DNA from: an uncultured Collinsella sp.
GTDB taxonomy: Bacteria; Actinomycetota; Coriobacteriia; Coriobacteriales; Coriobacteriaceae
Direction of reading: 5' to 3'
DNA: 11,104 nucleotides
Assembly: GCA_900555815.1 (NCBI GenBank)
Contig: USMR01000013.1
Coordinates: 1 to 11,104, forward strand
The notes below the pieces were generated by a model, which was given only the letters and a program-made list of their open reading frames with translations, had not been told where the DNA came from and searched no databases. Positions within the stretch are counted from its first letter, which is position 1, and the number at the start of each line of letters is the position of its first letter. Shown here piece after piece: positions 1,229-10,445 of this stretch. The translations under genes were made by a program, and so were the position numbers.

Positions 1229-4200
1229 CTAGCGCTTCTTTGGGATCGACCTAAGGCGAGCGAACCATAGGGCTGCGACACCCGAGGTCAGGAGCGCGGT
1301 GATGCAAGCGGCGATGGGAGATGATCCTGTTGCCGGTAGGTCCTGCGGTAGGGTACAGCGTTGAATGACGCTGTCCTCGTCATGTGACTCAAGTTTATCG
1401 CCGCCACCGTTGCGGCAAAGATCGACGCGCGCGCTGTTGGTGAGTGCGGTTTGGGGCGTATAAGCCGACGTTGCCTGCATGTGTACGACTGCGCCCCGAG
1501 CGTCTGTGCCAAGGATTGCTTTGGCATCGTCAAGGTCGTCGTGCTCATCTTTGAGATCATCGCGGGTCCAAGAATCCACATCGCTTCGAGTCGTAAAGTC
1601 GGCGGCTACCGCACCGTATTCAATTCGAATGCCCGTTACGACGGTATTGGACGCAAGGTCGAGTTCTTTCGCCTCGAGTGTGGTGGATTCCGTGGTCGAG
1701 ACATCCGCCTTCCAGAGGTGCCAGCCGTCGTAATCGACGAGGCGGCAATCCTCACCCAGACTCTCCCTTACTTCGTCGGACTCAAGCCAAGGATTTTCGT
1801 GCCCATCGTCAAGTGTCGCGTTCGCCGGCTCATCGACGTCTGTCGAGTCCAACGGCGTCGTGCGATACCACACGTTGCACAGACCATTGAGGTCGCCGAT
1901 GGCGACGGGGGTTTCGATTGAGACGAATCTCGCCGTATCGTCCTCGGCACACTCAAGATCATCGGTAATTGTGAACTCATCAACCCAGGTAGTTGAATCG
2001 TTTCGAGCGTCGATGGTATAGGAGAAAAGCCCATCCGTATTGGTTTGCATCGCGGCACGGTTTTTACCATCGCCGTTAGCCAACAGGCCCTTTTCGATAG
2101 GTTGGACAAGTTCCTGACGCTTGTCGACCTGCCCCTTGATCTCGATGGGCGCATCCTGCATCGCGACGGATTGGACTTCTCCCGTATCCTTTATTTCAAA
2201 CGTTATCTCCTCGGCAAGGTCATAGGTCCGCGGAGACATCATTTCGCGCAACGAGTAGGTGCCGGGTGCAAGATGTTCGACGCGGTGTGGCTTGTCGGAT
2301 GAGGTCCAGGAGTCTATTTCGGTTTTATCGGGACCATATAAGGCGAGCTGTGCGCCTTCCACTTCCTGCTCACCGCTTGCATCGACCTTGGAGATATCAA
2401 CCTTGGTGTAATCGTCGGATACGTTAAGCCGTGCTTCTACAACGGGTGTTTTCTGGTCGGCATAAGTAAGGTCGACAATATGGGTTGTCTGATCGAGCAA
2501 GAAGCCTGCCGGCGCTTGAGTCTCGACAACCTCGTAGCGTGCGGTGCCAGATCCCAGTGGGAGGTTGCCCGCGCGTGCTTCTCCAGTTTCATCCGTCGTG
2601 ACGGTCGCGACAGTCTCACCGTCGAGCGCGGCAATGCTACCGTCGGGGCGCACGATATCACCCGAGGCACGGATCTCAAAGATGGCGCCCGCGAGCCTGC
2701 TGCCGTCTACGGCATCGGTTTTAACGATCCTGATGTTTCCGGTCGCGGCGTGGTCATAATACGAGGCGATTGCAACGGGCGTTAGGTTCATGTCGGCGGG
2801 TATGTTTACCTCGATCTCTTCGCCGACAAGATAGGGCTCTTTGGCCGAGGTTTCGCGTACATAATAGGTGCCCGGCACGAGCGATTCGGGCAGTGTGACG
2901 GTCCCGGTCGCGTCAGTCGTAAAGGTGTCCATTACGTTATGTGCTGGATACCAGCAAGTTTGTGAGACAGGTTCGTGATTGCTGTCGAGGAGTTGGAAGG
3001 TGAATCCGGCTAGTGGAACAGAAGCGCCTGTTTGGGCATCGCGTTTTACAATCTGGAGATGCGTCGACAGAGCGTGGTTGTCCACGATATATTGAAGCTC
3101 GGCGCCGTCGGAAATCTGATTTGCCCCGACGGTCCATTCCCCTGCACGTTTAAAACCCTCGGGGACGGTTTCCGGAACCTCACGAACCGTGTAGCCGGCA
3201 CGGTCGTATGGGACGGCTCCGTGGACACCGGCGGGTCGCTTGCCTGTGCCGAACCATGCTTCGGGCTGATCTTCGGTGGAGGCAAAGCCATAGATGTTTG
3301 TGGTCAGTGTGCCAACAACCTGCTGAGAGCTGTTGCTGACAACCTCAAAGACAACACCACCCGCCGGCTGCTCCAGGCCGGATTGGTCGCTATTGCCGTA
3401 ATCCTTGAATTTGGAAATCTCAAGGTTAAACGCAATGGGGATATCGGAAACGCGAGATTCGATCTCGACCACGCCTGAATCGCCGAGCTGGTCGGCTCCA
3501 ACGGTATAGGTCCAGCTGTCGTTGGATGGCAGGTAGCCCTCGGGGGCTTTTGATTCGTAGATGGTAAAGGTTCCTAAGGGGACATCGGCGAGGGTGGCCC
3601 GACCGCTTTCGTCGGTCGTGAGGATTTGTGCCCATCCAGGGGTTGATTGCGACACACACGTGAACTCTGCTCCTGCGAGCGAAGCTCCCACCTGGTGGCC
3701 GGCATTCGTCGCGGCATCGAGTTTTACGATACGCAGGTTGATGGTGCCGGGCTGTTCATCAATGGCGACCCGCCCGCCGTCATTCCCCGTGGTAAAGGCA
3801 ATACGATCGTGGCGGGGGACATAGCCGGCCGGCGCCTTCGTTTCAACTAGGTAGTATGCCGTGTTGGGCAGAAGTGTTGCTTGCGCTCGACCGTTGCTGT
3901 CCATCTGGACGGTGCCGACATGCGCGCCGCTGGCGCTCTCAAAAATATCGAATGTTGCCCCGTCAAACTGATAAGTATTGTTTCCGCTGGTAATGGCGGC
4001 GTTTGCAGACTGTTTTTTGAAGGAAACAGAGACTGCCGGCAGTACATAGAGCATGTCTTGACGTTTGCTGCCGCCCGATACGGCTCCTAGATAGCGCCGC
4101 GCGCGGTGCGGAGCGGCTTTGATGCTTCCTGATTTTGCGTTGTCGTGGAGCCACCGCGCAGCCGCCACGACTTCATTGTCGCCGGTAAAGTGCCCGCGCT

Positions 4201-4660
4201 TGGTTTTGCCCTGAGCGGTCGTGTAGGAATAGGTACCGTCGACATGGGTAGTGCCGTTGAGCATCCATACGGCAAGCTGGGTTGCGGCGCGGGCGCGATC
4301 GGGTGAAAGATGGTAACCGCCAAACGACGTGGCGGTAGGATATCCGTGACAAACGATTGCCGCGAACTCGTCGTCGAGCCACACCCAGCCTTGATCAAAG
4401 TTGAGCCATGGGCCACCCGGTTTGGTGGGGCCGGGGCGCACCTGGTTCATGCAGTAGGCAATCGAGGTGTCTTGAGCTTCATACTTGCCGATGAAGAAGG
4501 GCCCACAATCATCGCTAATAGTGCGGAAGCCGAGCTGATCGTAGCCATCGACGGCAAATGCGGCTCCCGGTGTCAGGCAGCCGAAAAGCAGGAAGAGGAG
4601 CAGGAGCAGCGGACCTGTTGCGATTGCGCTGTGGACAGAGTGCGTGGGTGCGTTGGACAT
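1229..4660 (-). CDS. Thioester-domain (TQXA) surface adhesin with SpaA/Cna-B repeats and LPATG anchor
   Basis: 1143-residue exported wall protein. The ATG at 4660 has AAGGAG at 4666-4671 and starts a signal peptide (hydrophobic core about 17-28, likely cut near AAFA-VD, 36/37). Residues 38-210 look like a class I thioester domain: Cys70 (IAYCMN) and Gln128 in the TQLA motif are the expected pair for an internal thioester that can bind host amines covalently. Six prealbumin-like SpaA/Cna-B repeats follow at about 211-300, 308-400, 410-530, 534-630, 642-745 and 753-835. Several begin with IVKxD or ISKxD and end with ETxAPxGY-like strands, the usual Lys and Glu of intramolecular isopeptide bonds. 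Residues 838-1104 form an acidic region recalling fimbrial isopeptide D2 domains (FSYTIDARNDST, LTNSARVDL). The sorting signal is LPATG (1108-1112), a hydrophobic segment and RLRSIPKKR. No sortase or second pilin is adjacent, so it is more likely a solitary adhesin or a pilus tip than a shaft. Confidence 0.9.
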   Translation of the reverse strand: MSNAPTHSVHSAIATGPLLLLLFLLFGCLTPGAAFAVDGYDQLGFRTISDDCGPFFIGKYEAQDTSIAYCMNQVRPGPTKPGGPWLNFDQGWVWLDDEFAAIVCHGYPTATSFGGYHLSPDRARAATQLAVWMLNGTTHVDGTYSYTTAQGKTKRGHFTGDNEVVAAARWLHDNAKSGSIKAAPHRARRYLGAVSGGSKRQDMLYVLPAVSVSFKKQSANAAITSGNNTYQFDGATFDIFESASGAHVGTVQMDSNGRAQATLLPNTAYYLVETKAPAGYVPRHDRIAFTTGNDGGRVAIDEQPGTINLRIVKLDAATNAGHQVGASLAGAEFTCVSQSTPGWAQILTTDESGRATLADVPLGTFTIYESKAPEGYLPSNDSWTYTVGADQLGDSGVVEIESRVSDIPIAFNLEISKFKDYGNSDQSGLEQPAGGVVFEVVSNSSQQVVGTLTTNIYGFASTEDQPEAWFGTGKRPAGVHGAVPYDRAGYTVREVPETVPEGFKRAGEWTVGANQISDGAELQYIVDNHALSTHLQIVKRDAQTGASVPLAGFTFQLLDSNHEPVSQTCWYPAHNVMDTFTTDATGTVTLPESLVPGTYYVRETSAKEPYLVGEEIEVNIPADMNLTPVAIASYYDHAATGNIRIVKTDAVDGSRLAGAIFEIRASGDIVRPDGSIAALDGETVATVTTDETGEARAGNLPLGSGTARYEVVETQAPAGFLLDQTTHIVDLTYADQKTPVVEARLNVSDDYTKVDISKVDASGEQEVEGAQLALYGPDKTEIDSWTSSDKPHRVEHLAPGTYSLREMMSPRTYDLAEEITFEIKDTGEVQSVAMQDAPIEIKGQVDKRQELVQPIEKGLLANGDGKNRAAMQTNTDGLFSYTIDARNDSTTWVDEFTITDDLECAEDDTARFVSIETPVAIGDLNGLCNVWYRTTPLDSTDVDEPANATLDDGHENPWLESDEVRESLGEDCRLVDYDGWHLWKADVSTTESTTLEAKELDLASNTVVTGIRIEYGAVAADFTTRSDVDSWTRDDLKDEHDDLDDAKAILGTDARGAVVHMQATSAYTPQTALTNSARVDLCRNGGGDKLESHDEDSVIQRCTLPQDLPATGSSPIAACITALLTSGVAALWFARLRSIPKKR

Positions 4661-4957: not shown

Positions 4958-5032
4958 GCGGGCATCGCCAAGTGGTAAGGCATCAGCTTCCCAAGCTGAC
5001 ACTCGCGGGTTCGAGTCCCGTTGCCCGCTCCA
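4958..5032 (+). tRNA. tRNA-Gly (anticodon CCC)
   Basis: The 75 bases fold into a full cloverleaf. The acceptor arms GCGGGCA (4958-4964) and TGCCCGC pair perfectly. The D arm is GCC/GGC with GTGG in the loop. The anticodon stem TCAGC/GCTGA encloses TTCCCAA, giving anticodon CCC at 4990-4992, which reads GGG. The variable loop has 5 bases. The T arm GCGGG/CCCGT holds the loop TTCGAGT. The discriminator base is T and the CCA end (5030-5032) is encoded. A promoter lies just upstream and a terminator 11 bases downstream, so it is a single-gene unit. Pieces of its T arm and 3' end recur in the next 320 bases. Confidence 0.95.
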
Positions 5033-5152: not shown

Positions 5153-5170
5153 AGGCGCCGACAGGCGCCT
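5153..5170. repeat. GC-rich palindrome (AGGCGCC/GGCGCCT)
   Basis: A perfect 7-bp inverted repeat with the 4-base loop GACA, immediately before the first 52-bp repeat. No T tract follows, so it is not a normal terminator. Confidence 0.6.
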
Positions 5171-5172
5171 GA

Positions 5173-5224
5173 AGCCGGTGCGTATTTGCGAAGCAAATAC
5201 GCGGATGTCCCGTTGCCCGCTCCA
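5173..5224 (+). repeat. tRNA-tailed palindromic repeat, copy A
   Basis: 52-bp unit matching copy B at 5304-5355 in 49 of 52 positions. The left part holds a perfect palindrome (5180-5202) with arms GCGTATTTGC and GCAAATACGC around a GAA loop. The right part, GTCCCGTTGCCCGCTCCA (5207-5224), is identical to the last 18 bases of tRNA-Gly (5015-5032), including CCA. The unit is therefore a hairpin fused to a tRNA 3' end. No gene is carried. Confidence 0.85.
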
Positions 5225-5303
5225 TCGAGTACGGGGGACCTCGGGAACGTCGGGTCCAACCCGCTGTGCCCGTGCGTGTGCGCGGACCGGGTCTGCCGAC
5301 CGC

Positions 5304-5355
5304 AGCCGGTGCGTATTTGCGAAGCAAATACGCGGACGTCCCCATGCCCGCTCCA
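5304..5355 (+). repeat. tRNA-tailed palindromic repeat, copy B
   Basis: Second copy of the 52-bp unit, 131 bases after copy A. The palindrome (5311-5333) is identical. Three changes fall in the right part: T to C at 5337, and GT to CA at 5343-5344 within the tRNA-like tail, which still ends in TGCCCGCTCCA. The tail has thus drifted slightly from the tRNA while the hairpin has not. Confidence 0.85.
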
Positions 5356-5457: not shown

Positions 5458-6801
5458 ATGATCGATCGCTATACCCGCCCGGAGATGGGACACATCTTCT
5501 CCCTCGAGAACAAGTACGCCATTTGGCAGGAGATCGAGGTCCTGGCCTGCGAGGCCCAGGCGGAGCTCGGCAAGATCGGTATTTCCAAAGAAGAGGCCCA
5601 GTGGATTCGCGACCACGCCAACTTTGAGAAGGAGAAGGTTGACGAGATCGAGGAGGTCACGCGCCACGATGTCATCGCCTTCCTGACCAACATGAAGGAG
5701 TACATCGACGCCGACGTCCCCGAGGGCGAGCCCAAGCCCAGCCGCTGGGTTCACTACGGTATGACCAGCTCTGACCTGGGTGATACGGCTCTGTGCTACC
5801 AGCTCACTCAGGCTTGCGACCTTATCATCGAGGACGTCAAGAAGCTCGGCGAGATCTGCAAGCGCCGTGCCTTCGAGGAGCGCAACACGCTCTGCGCCGG
5901 CCGTACTCACGGTATTCACGCCGAGCCGATGACCTTCGGCATGAAGTTTGGCTCTTGGGCTTGGGAGCTCAAGCGCGATTTGGACCGTCTTGAGGATGCC
6001 CGCAAGAACGTCGCCTTCGGTGCCATCTCGGGCGCTATCGGCACGTACAGCTCCATCGAGCCGTTCGTGGAGGAGTATGTCTGCGAGCACCTTGGTCTGG
6101 TTCACGATCCGCTGTCTACGCAGGTCATCAGCCGTGACCACCACGCCTACCTTGCCGGCGTGCTCGCTACCACGGCAGCTACCTGCGAGCGCATTGCGAC
6201 CGAGGTTCGCAACCTGCAGAAGACCGATACGCTCGAGGCCGAGGAGCCGTTCCGCAAGGGTCAAAAGGGCAGCTCCGCCATGCCGCACAAGCGCAACCCC
6301 ATCACTATGGAGAAGGTCTGCGGCCTTTCGCGCATCGTCAAGTCCAACGCCCAGGTCGCCTTCGACAACGTTGCCCTGTGGCACGAGCGCGACATTTCGC
6401 ACTCCTCTGCCGAGCGCGTCGCCCAGGCCGATAGCTTCATCGCCCTTGACCACATGTTCCAGTGCCTCATCCGCGTCATCGACGGCCTGCAGCTGTACCC
6501 TGCCCGCATGATGGCCAATCTCAACAAGACCCGCGGCCTCATCTTCTCCTCCAAGGTGCTGCTGGCTCTCGTCGATACAGGCATCACCCGCGAGGATGCC
6601 TATGCCATCGTGCAGGAAAACGCCATGGCCACGTGGCACGAGGTGCAGGATTGCGTCTACGGTCCTACCTTTAAGGAGCGCCTCGAGGCCGATCCGCGCT
6701 GCACCGTCAGCCAGGAGAAGCTCGACGAGATCTTTGACCCGTGGGACTTCCTCACCCGCATCGACACGGTCTTCGATCGCCTGGAGCAGCTCGAGTTCTA
6801 A
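5458..6801 (+). CDS. purB: Adenylosuccinate lyase
   Basis: 447-residue cytoplasmic enzyme of the fumarase/aspartase superfamily. It cleaves SAICAR to AICAR plus fumarate in purine synthesis, and adenylosuccinate to AMP plus fumarate. The family signature GSSAMPHKRNP is at residues 271-281; it forms the mobile loop with the catalytic serine (Ser272 or Ser273). TSSDLGDT (103-110) and GRTHGIHAEP (148-157) supply further active-site residues, with His151 as the likely catalytic His. The length fits the bacterial PurB type of about 430-450 residues. ATG 5458 is chosen because AAGGAG (5447-5452) lies 5 bases before it and the protein begins MIDRYTRPEM as in homologues; an in-frame TTG at 5392 would add 22 residues unlike the family. 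Codon use is strongly biased to GCC, CTC, GAG and CGC, typical of a well-expressed housekeeping gene. It has its own upstream region and a hairpin after it, and no other pur gene is adjacent. Confidence 0.97.
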   Translation: MIDRYTRPEMGHIFSLENKYAIWQEIEVLACEAQAELGKIGISKEEAQWIRDHANFEKEKVDEIEEVTRHDVIAFLTNMKEYIDADVPEGEPKPSRWVHYGMTSSDLGDTALCYQLTQACDLIIEDVKKLGEICKRRAFEERNTLCAGRTHGIHAEPMTFGMKFGSWAWELKRDLDRLEDARKNVAFGAISGAIGTYSSIEPFVEEYVCEHLGLVHDPLSTQVISRDHHAYLAGVLATTAATCERIATEVRNLQKTDTLEAEEPFRKGQKGSSAMPHKRNPITMEKVCGLSRIVKSNAQVAFDNVALWHERDISHSSAERVAQADSFIALDHMFQCLIRVIDGLQLYPARMMANLNKTRGLIFSSKVLLALVDTGITREDAYAIVQENAMATWHEVQDCVYGPTFKERLEADPRCTVSQEKLDEIFDPWDFLTRIDTVFDRLEQLEF

Positions 6802-6869
6802 TTGACCGATCGGGGAGGTAGTCAAATCGATCAATTCTCCGCGGCCCTCGTTCGAGTGCGACTTTCCAA

Positions 6870-6911
6870 CACAAGCCCCGCTCGCAGCTCGCTCTGCCAG
6901 CGGGGCTTGTG
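6870..6911 (+). terminator. Strong hairpin after purB, probable terminator without a T tract
   Basis: Arms CACAAGCCCCGCT (6870-6882) and AGCGGGGCTTGTG (6899-6911) are perfectly complementary over 13 bases with a 16-base loop. It lies 68 bases after the purB stop. The bases after it (CATGAGCG) lack a T run, so if it ends transcription it is not a textbook intrinsic terminator. Confidence 0.6.
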
Positions 6912-7002
6912 CATGAGCGCACCTAGAAAGCTGGACGTCAGCGATATATGCGCGTCAACTGTGCTGCTTGCCGATAATTTGAGACATCTGACAAACATTA
7001 CC

Positions 7003-7032
7003 TTGCCGGTAACTGTCGGGGGGGGGTATCCT
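7003..7032 (+). promoter_or_regulatory. Putative promoter of the BIG2 surface protein, with poly-G spacer
   Basis: TTGCCG (7003-7008) and TATCCT (7027-7032) are 18 bases apart, and the last nine bases of the spacer are all G (7018-7026). Start of transcription would be near 7040, giving a leader of about 55 bases. Both boxes match consensus in 4 of 6 bases. The G run makes the spacer length prone to change by replication slippage. Confidence 0.55.
7018..7026. repeat. Poly-G tract (G9)
   Basis: Nine consecutive G bases directly before the putative -10 box of the downstream surface-protein gene. I saw no other G or C run of this length in the window. Confidence 0.9.
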
Positions 7033-7048
7033 TAAGCCAATTTTAAGG
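7030..7048. promoter_or_regulatory. Inverted repeat CCTTAA/TTAAGG at the putative transcription start
   Basis: Perfect 6-base arms (7030-7035 and 7043-7048) spaced by 7 bases overlap the end of the -10 box and the expected start site. The position suits a repressor operator, but the arms are short and AT-rich and may be chance. Confidence 0.3.
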
Positions 7049-7094
7049 TGTGGGAGAATGCTGCGTTTTTTCACGAGAGATTGGACTTAGGGGA

Positions 7095-10000
7095 ATGAGA
7101 AAAGGGTTTTGGAGGATAGCCACAGGCATCTGTGTTGCTTTAACGGCGGCAACGTTTGGGCTGACGGTGGCCGCTCCGCATGCGGATGCTGTCATGCTGG
7201 AGTCGCAGGACGGTTCCATGGGTGCATCGTTTCTCCCATACGATTCGTCTACAGGCGATGTGTGGTCAGAATTTGATGTCGCTGTTGGACAGACGGTGAA
7301 AGGAAGGCTTTCCTTTTTTAATAAAAATCACGAATGGGCGCACATTGACCCTAGCGATATCGATATCATATCGTCTGACGAGGATATCGCTAAGGTAAGT
7401 TATGAGTCACATAGTTGGGTATTGACAATTAGCCCCACCAAAGTTGGCACAACGACTATAACCCTGAAGAGCAAGACCGACGAGAGTTTAAACGGTTCTC
7501 TTAAGATTAAAAGTGTGGCTAAAGTCAATCCAATTAAGGTCAGTTTCGTTTCTTACGACCAATCTGGTGCGACAACAAACACCGCAACGCTGGGTTACAC
7601 GGATGATTGTCCGCAAAAATGCGGGAACACGCATTATGCATTACTAGAGGGGAGAGTTGACGTTCGTCCCGTGGACGAGAGCCGTGCGGCCACATATTTT
7701 GTTATTAAGGAAGACCCCTCAAAGGATTCCAAAGTCCAGGCAAGGGTGAATTCGAATTATTCATCATATGGAACTTCCGAGCTAAGCGCTTCTTTGCAAC
7801 TCGAGGCGTTGTCGAAAGATGCTAAAGAGGCCAAGGTTCTTGTCGACTATTGCAACGGTGAAGTTGAGACGAAGAAGCTATGTGATGTTGTAACCGAGAA
7901 TCAGGAGCCCGGATTCAATGAGCGTGGGAACAAAAAGCAAAAGATGCTGGTTGGGGACAGCGATTATCTGACTGCCATTCTCAACGTTTCTCCAAATGAA
8001 GTACTGAAGGCATGCCAGCGCGGACATTGGGGTGCGGACTTTGGCGCTGTAACCTATTCTCTGGAAAGCAACGATGTCGTTGAGCTTATCGGTGGTGAAA
8101 ACTCGTTTAAGGCAATAAAGCCTGGCACCGTTAAGGCTCATGCTCGTGATGGCCTTGGCAATGACCATCCCTTTGAGATAGAGGTTGTCGACCCTGCGGA
8201 AGTGAGCCTTTCGAAGGCTAAGTTTGTGTCGAGCGATTATACATTTCCCTGTGAGGTCAGTTCAGATAGTATATCCAAAGATTGGCTTTGGCTGGAATGT
8301 GACAGGGGGTTTGAATATCCAAAGGGCGTGCTGAGTAAAAGCGCTGAGGAATTGATGGACTCCTATGCCGGCGCAAAGTATGCTTTCACTTCAGATAATC
8401 CGGATGTCCTCGAGGTAAAAGGACCGATGTTTAGTGGTGGCAGTTACTTGGGGTATTTAGTGCCTCATAGTTACGGCGATGCAACGGTTTCAATGTACTT
8501 GGGTGGTCGTCTCTGCGACACGATGACCGTTCATGTTGTCAAGCCTGGCGAGGAGCCTGCAAAGACTGCGGTTTCCATTGCGGACAGCTACTCAACCTCC
8601 ATGGATAAAGGCACGACTCAGCAGCTGAAGGCAAAGGTCTCCCCTGATGACAAGGCCAGCCAAGTTGTTTGGTCCTCTTCCAACGAGAGCGTCCTTACCG
8701 TCGACGCTAACGGTCTTGTTACCGCTGTCGGTGACGGTGATGCCACGATCACGGCAACGGTTGATGGGGTCTCTGCAACCACGGATGCGATTACGGTAAC
8801 CACTCCGGTTGTAAAGGTGTCGGGCGTCAAGCTCAGCGCTTCAAACCTTAAGCTTGCTGTGGGCGGTGAGCCCTCGACGTTGACCGCAGCGGTTGAGCCC
8901 GATAATGCAACGAACAAGAACTTGTCCTGGTCGTCGAGCGATCCTACGGTCGCCACGGTTGCAGACGGCGTCGTGACCCCGGTCAAGGCAGGTGTTGCTA
9001 CGATTACCGTCACCACTGAGGACGGAGAGCATAGCGCCACGTGCAAGGTGACGGTTATTCAGCCTGCTACGGGCATCACGCTCGATAAGCAGAAGGTCGT
9101 GCTTGTGGGCGCTGCAACCGAGCAGCTTAAGGCGGCGGTCGTTCCCGCGGAGGCTAACCAGACGATTGTCTGGAAGTCCAGCAACGAAAGTGTCGCTACA
9201 GTCGATCAAACCGGAAAGGTGGCGGCTGTCTCCAAGGGCGCCGCAATCATCACCGTTTCGACTGAAGGCGGCACCTATTCTCAGGATTGCGCGGTGACCG
9301 TCTCTAATCCCGCAACGAACCTTACGGTCGACCAGAGCGTCCTCGGCCTCAAGAAGGGCGAAGAGGGCACCGTGAAGGTTTCTCTTGCTGGAACCCTTGC
9401 GGGTGAGGTCGACGAGACCAATCTTGCTCTGGATGACACGGGCGCTTCGAAGGCGTTTAAGGTTGTCGACAACGGTGATGGCTCCTACACCGTTACCGCC
9501 CTCAAGACCGGTTCTGGTTCTTTTGTCATCACTGCAGGGTCGCTCTCCCAGACCGTTTCGGTGACCGTGACCAATCCCGCCCAAAAGGTTGAGCTCAACA
9601 AGACGAGCCTGTCCTTTACCGTCGGTGATGCCTCCACAAAGCTCTCCGCAACGGTGAGTCCTGCCGATGCAGACGATACGACGGTGAGCTGGACCTCCAG
9701 CGACTCGTCGATCGCCACGGTCAAAGACGGCGTCGTGACGCCGCTTAAGGCCGGTACCGCCACGATTACCGCCACCTGTGGCGACAAAACCGCGACCTGC
9801 GCCGTTATCGTAGCGGCAAAGACCATTGCAGGCGTTGCGGGTAGCAACGGAACGGACGTTAGCGTAAGCGCCGAGAACAATGTCGCTGCCGGCATTGCCC
9901 AGAACAACAGCATCTCTCTTGTGGTCGAGGAACCGACGGATCTTACCGATGCCGCCAATGCTACGATTTCCGGCCTTGAGCAGGGGACTACCAAGGTTGC

Positions 10001-10445
10001 CGATAAGCTCGATATCAAGCTTCTCAAGGACGGCGAGGTTATCGAGGACTACGAAGGCATGTCCTTCATCGTCCGTGTCAAGATGACTGCCGCCATGAAG
10101 GCGCTCACCAATCTCAAGGTGCTCTACGTTGCCGAGGATGGTTCCACTCAGGCTATGGATACGTGGACCGAGGGCGACTACCTCTGCTTCCGCACGAGCC
10201 ACTTCTCGACGTACGTGGTGACGGGCGAGGAGGCCAAGGGGGAGCCGGCTCAGCCTGCGCAGCCCGTGACGCCGTCCCAACCCGGTCAGCAGACGACGAC
10301 CAAGGTAACCAAAACGTCCGCTAAGACTACTAAGGGTGCGCTCGCCAACACGGGCGACCAAACCCTTGCCGTCGCCTTTATTATGACCGTTGTCGGCGCT
10401 TCGCTGATTGCCTTTGCGCTTATGCGCAAACGTCTCGAGTGTTAG
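7095..10445 (+). CDS. BIG2 (Ig-like) repeat cell-surface protein with LANTG sorting signal
   Basis: 1116-residue exported protein. ATG 7095 is preferred over GTG 7050 because it gives a proper signal peptide (MRKGFWR, hydrophobic core 8-26, likely cut after PHADA, residue 32). AGGGGA directly before it is a poorly spaced ribosome site, so the start is not certain. Residues 50-480 contain diverged BIG2-like units (about 55-145, 290-365, 368-482) around unrecognised sequence. Clear BIG2 domains, with the pattern SWSSSDPTVATVADGVVTPV and AGxATITV, lie at about 490-569, 572-655, 656-737 and 827-907; 738-826 is a degenerate one. Residues 908-1046 form a C-terminal beta-rich domain. A Pro/Thr/Lys linker (1047-1081) leads to LANTG (1083-1087), a hydrophobic segment and RKRLEC, a sortase signal with Ala in place of Pro. 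DNA for about the first 480 residues is clearly poorer in GC than the rest. Likely role: adhesion or cell-surface display; the ligand is unknown. Confidence 0.9.
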   Translation: MRKGFWRIATGICVALTAATFGLTVAAPHADAVMLESQDGSMGASFLPYDSSTGDVWSEFDVAVGQTVKGRLSFFNKNHEWAHIDPSDIDIISSDEDIAKVSYESHSWVLTISPTKVGTTTITLKSKTDESLNGSLKIKSVAKVNPIKVSFVSYDQSGATTNTATLGYTDDCPQKCGNTHYALLEGRVDVRPVDESRAATYFVIKEDPSKDSKVQARVNSNYSSYGTSELSASLQLEALSKDAKEAKVLVDYCNGEVETKKLCDVVTENQEPGFNERGNKKQKMLVGDSDYLTAILNVSPNEVLKACQRGHWGADFGAVTYSLESNDVVELIGGENSFKAIKPGTVKAHARDGLGNDHPFEIEVVDPAEVSLSKAKFVSSDYTFPCEVSSDSISKDWLWLECDRGFEYPKGVLSKSAEELMDSYAGAKYAFTSDNPDVLEVKGPMFSGGSYLGYLVPHSYGDATVSMYLGGRLCDTMTVHVVKPGEEPAKTAVSIADSYSTSMDKGTTQQLKAKVSPDDKASQVVWSSSNESVLTVDANGLVTAVGDGDATITATVDGVSATTDAITVTTPVVKVSGVKLSASNLKLAVGGEPSTLTAAVEPDNATNKNLSWSSSDPTVATVADGVVTPVKAGVATITVTTEDGEHSATCKVTVIQPATGITLDKQKVVLVGAATEQLKAAVVPAEANQTIVWKSSNESVATVDQTGKVAAVSKGAAIITVSTEGGTYSQDCAVTVSNPATNLTVDQSVLGLKKGEEGTVKVSLAGTLAGEVDETNLALDDTGASKAFKVVDNGDGSYTVTALKTGSGSFVITAGSLSQTVSVTVTNPAQKVELNKTSLSFTVGDASTKLSATVSPADADDTTVSWTSSDSSIATVKDGVVTPLKAGTATITATCGDKTATCAVIVAAKTIAGVAGSNGTDVSVSAENNVAAGIAQNNSISLVVEEPTDLTDAANATISGLEQGTTKVADKLDIKLLKDGEVIEDYEGMSFIVRVKMTAAMKALTNLKVLYVAEDGSTQAMDTWTEGDYLCFRTSHFSTYVVTGEEAKGEPAQPAQPVTPSQPGQQTTTKVTKTSAKTTKGALANTGDQTLAVAFIMTVVGASLIAFALMRKRLEC

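Follow-up and report, generated by a model that had tools for sequence, protein, structure and literature searches.

Promoter-spacer slippage is best known from Neisseria, and poly-G contingency loci within coding regions represent the general class. The excerpted parts of one source (PMC7864442) describe three promoters of this sort: the porA promoter of Neisseria meningitidis carries a poly-G tract between the -10 and -35 elements, with a 17-nt optimum; in Neisseria opc a poly-C tract covers the -35 element; and in Treponema pallidum tprL a poly-G tract spans part of the -10 element and leaves the spacing unchanged. For Coriobacteriia, the initial annotation knew of no described promoter-slippage switch. 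This agrees with the open-licence PMC literature, where none of the matches listed appears to describe poly-G tracts or slippage switching under Collinsella or Coriobacteri; the excerpted parts of a paper on prophages (PMC8778435) apparently describe no such tracts either. The kind of mechanism is already known, and it is a genus-wide repertoire that a specialist would find new.

The G9 tract and its proposed promoter setting in the window

The window, an 11,104-nt stretch of DNA from an uncultured Collinsella sp., carries on its plus strand a gene for a 1116-aa protein with BIG2 repeats (7095..10445; Big_2, E 2.7e-45) and a LANTG sorting signal (10341-10355). From the ATG at 7095 the protein opens with a segment that is signal-peptide-like as judged by eye, followed by the Big_2 repeats, and these features mark the product as a wall-anchored, adhesin-like surface protein. 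Upstream on the same strand lies purB, encoding adenylosuccinate lyase (5458..6801; Lyase_1, ADSL_C; start placed at an ATG inside the ORF as listed). It is followed by a hairpin (6870..6911, plus strand; -33.2 kcal/mol, z -4.7) that forms a terminator-like stem without a T run and is also predicted in a related genome, G035. Because this stable hairpin stands 3' of purB, the surface gene probably has its own promoter within 6914-7094. Elsewhere in the window, a second large surface protein is encoded on the minus strand (1229-4660), with a thioester domain, SpaA repeats and, by eye, an LPATG near its C-terminus. A 59-nt direct repeat occupies 5166-5355, downstream of a tRNA gene (4958-5029); its copies are 90% identical, lie 131 nt apart and each contain the palindrome-like GCGTATTTGCGAAGCAAATACGC. 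The Rfam search of the window returned one tRNA, and at gathering scores five loci, including L081 of G035 and three SipW-operon leader copies (see below), gave no match.

The promoter layout proposed in the initial annotation upstream of the BIG2/LANTG gene was reproduced from the sequence. On the plus strand, a -35 box TTGCCG (7003..7008) is followed by an 18-nt spacer (7009..7026) composed of nine non-G bases (GTAACTGTC) and a G9 homopolymer (7018..7026), the proposed slippage site, and then by a -10 box TATCCT (7027..7032) and the 5' untranslated leader (7033..7094). The block immediately 5' of the -35 box (6966..7002, plus strand) includes the hexamer GATAAT (6973-6978) and is possibly a regulator site or a second promoter. 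The tract is the only run of at least eight G's in the window, both strands counted. By a shuffle test the run itself is only mildly unusual: dinucleotide shuffles contained a mean of 0.34 G8 matches, and 14 of 200 shuffles reached the two overlapping matches observed. TTGCCG-18-TATCCT is the top-ranked sigma70-type pair in 6914-7094, scored with an approximate matrix. Its score of 8.9 is ordinary and not exceptional, lying close to the median of the best scores of 300 mononucleotide shuffles (median 8.2, 95% point 11.8). TTGCCG and TATCCT each match the consensus at 4 of 6 positions, and a stricter consensus scan of 6700-7300 listed no promoter. The case for the promoter is made by its conservation in G035, not by its score.

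Several other arrangements at the locus were rejected. A frameshift contingency locus was discarded, as the G9 tract ends 68 nt 5' of the ATG and stands outside the main frame, which extends open only 48 nt in that direction and closes short of the tract. A 77-aa ORF overlapping the tract (6802-7035) was not accepted as a gene. An opc-type tract over the -35 element was ruled out by position (-35 box at 7003-7008 versus tract at 7018-7026), and an invertible promoter was dismissed with zero inverted pairs of at least 11 nt found within 6900-7110.

Conservation of the locus in a related genome

Our genus sample comprised 43 genomes, with the window's own assembly outside the set, and the locus was present in one of them (G035, contig L081), where the gene order purB - surface gene - solute-binding gene is the same as in the window. 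Identity between the two sequences changes sharply along the locus: 69% over 6806-6913, 38% over 6914-6965 and 86% (32 of 37 positions) over the 6966-7002 block. Within the promoter, 4 of 6 positions of the -35 box (TTGTCA in G035), 5 of 9 non-G spacer positions and 9 of 9 tract positions are identical, as is the entire -10 box. The segment 7027-7094, which contains the leader, is 96% identical (65 of 68 columns), the first 15 codons 80% and 7140-7290 only 39%, and the proteins share 33% identity over residues 1-378. The promoter, leader and signal-peptide start thus appear conserved, and the protein behind them diverged. TTGTCA-18-TATCCT also ranks first in G035, aligned with the window pair. 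Since G9, the 18-nt spacer and TATCCT are kept while 6914-6965 is only 38% identical, the locus looks like more than a chance arrangement. The two alleles known at the locus, those of the window and G035, both have G9 and an 18-nt spacer; this length is near the 17-nt optimum, so that changes of +1 or -1 would matter. As a pair, two G9 alleles neither support nor exclude switching. The G035 main frame stays open 111 nt 5' of the ATG, across the tract, with a TTG at -78; judging by frame alone, a coding role for the tract in that genome is conceivable.

A protein search with residues 1-480, in which the 7987 best candidates were scored, gave 29 relatives at 28-99% identity, one of them a cluster of 3342 member sequences. 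Nine surface-protein relatives were compared; it seems that the C-terminal repeats are common to them and that the N-terminal part differs. Comparison of these nine sequences suggests mosaic exchange of the surface protein behind a conserved promoter. A protein-based search for the locus in genome contigs and viral contigs found no relatives, and a plasmid search for it found nothing. A DNA pattern scan of genome contigs returned 14 loci, of which only L081 was relevant and the other 13 were discarded by title; in viral contigs that pattern matched two loci, neither with a G run.

Mismatch repair and poly-G tracts across the genus

A search for MutS_I (PF01624) found it in none of 29 relatives (18 belong to the genus); of 14 control genomes, 11 have it. 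According to the excerpted parts of the respective sources, all analysed Coriobacteriia are without both NucS and MutS-MutL (PMC5290159), and indels are not corrected by NucS (PMC8228993). The lineage appears to be without mismatch repair, and where such repair is absent slippage at surface genes would persist. The complete sets of six genomes (G002-G007, ~14.3 Mb) hold 60 tracts of at least nine G's, about one per 240 kb, and G9 runs are present in all 43 genus genomes. Four genomes have G9 matches far above the others (G008, 90; G031, 566; G032, 989; G033, 270); the surplus in the last three may be an assembly artefact, and most of the G008 matches listed come from a small number of very long G runs.

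Several of the coding tracts in G002-G007 recur in the N-terminal part of genes that are of secreted or surface type as judged by eye. The gene starting MKANSDKSKQSK was matched in 20 genomes and read in 19 (L186-L204, L206), with G033 omitted because its match ends at contig base 3. Ten of the 19 have the tract: seven carry G9 and a long open frame, two carry G8 and a frame broken at 68 aa, and one carries G10 and a frame broken at 64 aa. Seven are tractless, their frame staying open to the end of the locus, and two have a shortened sequence with a stop at 62 aa. The tract in this gene sits directly 3' of an internal ATG. Read together, the alleles suggest that this surface-type gene is likely an on/off contingency locus. 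For the gene starting MANYSPQHFEP, an in-frame G9 is present in G002, G003 and G004; the G007 copy has G10, with no frame of at least 100 aa across the tract. Genes of a third family, named pilin-like by eye (the Pfam match in L178 is DUF6273), start with ATGCATG before the G tract, which provides two starts in different frames (L005, L043, L090, L106, L122, L149, L150, L159, L178). Among 12 distinct tracts in the family, the first start is in frame for four G9 tracts and the second for five G10 tracts, and for three no in-frame start was found; with two starts before G9 or G10, two of the three tract frames would keep the protein in frame. Overall, the coding tracts in the genus look like contingency loci.

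Promoter-like tracts were sought as at least eight G's followed by TANNNT. This pattern occurs at 23 sites in the 43 genomes versus 19 for the reversed pattern, so G8 ahead of a -10-like hexamer is not enriched across the genus. A hexamer matching TTGACA at 5 or more of 6 positions, at spacers of 15-21, was found at 8 of the 23 sites, all of which were inspected and scored, and at 7 of the 16 left after deduplication, which dropped L102 (an ortholog of L099) and six SipW-operon copies; 54 control windows on the 16 sites gave 0.54 on average and 3 at most. The clearest of the seven are L089 and L101 (dltA-like) and L099. The other four are L098, which is the relative of the window locus itself, L093, which lies within a signal-peptide coding region, the ambiguous L103, and L085, with ATGACA at spacer 20. 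A second pattern, TTGCC or TTGAC, 1-30 bases, G7 and TANNNT, gave nine matches at eight sites versus one match for the reversed patterns, and six of the eight sites have spacers of 15-21 out of ~30 lengths allowed; this spacing test and the -35 hexamer test draw on overlapping sites.

Three groups of these sites could be compared between genomes. Nearly identical promoters in G036 and G042 precede secreted proteins that are 96% identical (signal peptide by eye; no Pfam match), and their spacers differ only in carrying G9 (TTGACT-18-TACGCT) versus G8 (TTGACT-17-TACGCT). More distant relatives of these proteins in G037 and G040 match only from residues 30 and 27, respectively; no G run of at least six lies within 300 bases upstream of these matches, whose promoters may sit further up. 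Before a dltA-like gene, G017 has TTGCCA-N10-G9-TAGCCT and G038 and G016 have G11 between TTGCCA and TAG; the three loci with the tract are L133, L134 and L135. This tract was present in three of the nine loci read (16 matches in all) and absent from those of G027, G023, G039, G029, G043 and G025; the upstream DNA of the G027 locus resembles that of G016. The name dltA-like reflects best NCBIfam matches to DltA models that score below curated cut-offs, with a query cut by the locus end. Finally, a conserved non-coding stretch in six genomes, the SipW-operon leader copies (L083, L086, L092, L095, L096, L104), has G9 four times, G10 once and G11 once, with TAC and a conserved leader coming next; a clear -35 of the TTG type was not seen in these copies. 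A signal peptidase I gene lies ~300 nt beyond the leader in five of the six copies, only partly within the locus in L104, and none is seen within the stretch covered for L086. The L092 signal peptidase scores above the cut-off of TIGR02228 and below that of the SipW model. Three copies (L083, L092 and L096) extend to the following gene, which is of secreted type; the one in L092 matches TIGR04088, a SipW-dependent-type signal peptide, above cut-off. Tract-length differences between assemblies can be assembly errors.

We give even odds to the broader proposal that Collinsella, whose members lack MutS, carries, across the genus, an undescribed set of poly-G contingency loci affecting envelope genes, some acting by frameshift and others through a promoter spacer. 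In this proposal the promoter-spacer loci would tune four targets: a BIG2 adhesin; a secreted protein; a dltA-like gene, for D-alanylation of teichoic acid; and an operon with a SipW-type signal peptidase. Such a repertoire would be a more interesting result than the single locus. A case of promoter-spacer slippage in a gut actinobacterium without mismatch repair would make surface variation in this commensal directly testable from existing metagenome reads, and would suggest that mismatch-repair loss in Coriobacteriia is accompanied by many slippage-prone surface genes. This has a bearing on how strains differ in adhesion and in recognition by the immune system.

Readings of the tract and comparison with described switches

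We consider it probable, with some reserve, that the G9 tract of the window is a porA-like promoter-spacer slippage switch of the surface gene. The tract would be a slippage-prone spacer element in the gene's own promoter, where replication slippage would add or remove G's and the changes would stay uncorrected, mismatch repair being apparently absent. The -35/-10 distance would then be 17 nt at G8, 18 at G9 and 19 at G10, this spacing would alter the transcription level of the surface gene, and a clonal population would come to have mixed surface expression. We infer that TTGCCG-18-TATCCT is the promoter used, that the tract changes length and that expression follows. The initial annotation had offered the same reading, and much of it stands: the best-ranked promoter match has the tract in its spacer, the layout is kept in the diverged G035, the product is a wall-anchored surface protein, relatives lack MutS and other tracts in the genus vary. 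Variation at the locus itself stays a prediction; when tract length was compared across related genomes, as the annotation had proposed, G035 had G9 as in the window, and the varying tracts were those of other loci. We counted against switching the G9 of both known alleles, the ordinary promoter score with its 4/6 boxes, the lack of a genus-wide excess of G8-TANNNT and the presence of the dltA-like tract in only three of nine loci read, and the frame open through the tract in G035 lowered our confidence slightly.

The tract could instead be a fixed part of a real promoter spacer, contributing twist or melting properties or a regulator contact, with no switching. Constancy of this kind would fit the shared G9 and the strong identity of 7027-7094 and of the block 5' of the -35 box, as under constraint; however, similar tracts in the genus vary in length and, in relatives without MutS, strong selection would be needed to hold the number of G's, so we regard a fixed tract as unlikely. 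Use of another promoter, for example at GATAAT, would place the tract in the 5' leader, where any action would be through RNA structure, or, in G035, within an extended frame. GATAAT is a 5/6 match within the conserved block, TTTAAT-18-GATAAT is the second-best pair in G035 (score 10.3), and the G035 main frame runs open through the tract from the TTG 78 nt 5' of the ATG. In the window, however, GATAAT is absent from the eight best pairs and the main frame closes short of the tract; the region that would hold the -35 of GATAAT is the poorly conserved one, and the pair that spans the tract is the top scorer in the window and in G035 alike. We therefore find another promoter improbable. A functionless chance run near a -10-like hexamer would be in keeping with the G9 runs of all 43 genomes and with G8-TANNNT counts barely above the reversed control, but the run and spacer length were retained in the diverged G035 and tracts recur before other envelope genes, which makes chance a very improbable explanation.

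The preferred reading, a promoter-spacer switch, can be set beside the described systems as the excerpted source presents them. Like the coding poly-G loci of its Collinsella relatives, the window locus belongs to the same genus, has the same tract length and concerns a surface-type protein; the coding loci would switch by frameshift, whereas the window tract stands 5' of the start codon and out of frame. As described in PMC7864442, tprL would share with the window a poly-G tract near the -10 element in the promoter of a surface gene, but the window tract stops just before the proposed -10 box. The same source's opc promoter likewise has a homopolymer in the promoter of a surface protein gene, whereas the window tract consists of G's on the coding strand, directly adjoins the -10 box and leaves the -35 box intact. 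With porA as described there, the window would share a poly-G tract between the -35 and -10 elements of a gene for a surface protein, with a spacer near the 17-nt optimum. It differs from porA in phylum and envelope, in encoding a sortase-type anchored BIG2 protein and not a porin, and in having relatives without MutS. By this analogy, among porA, opc and tprL as the source describes them, the window locus would resemble porA most.
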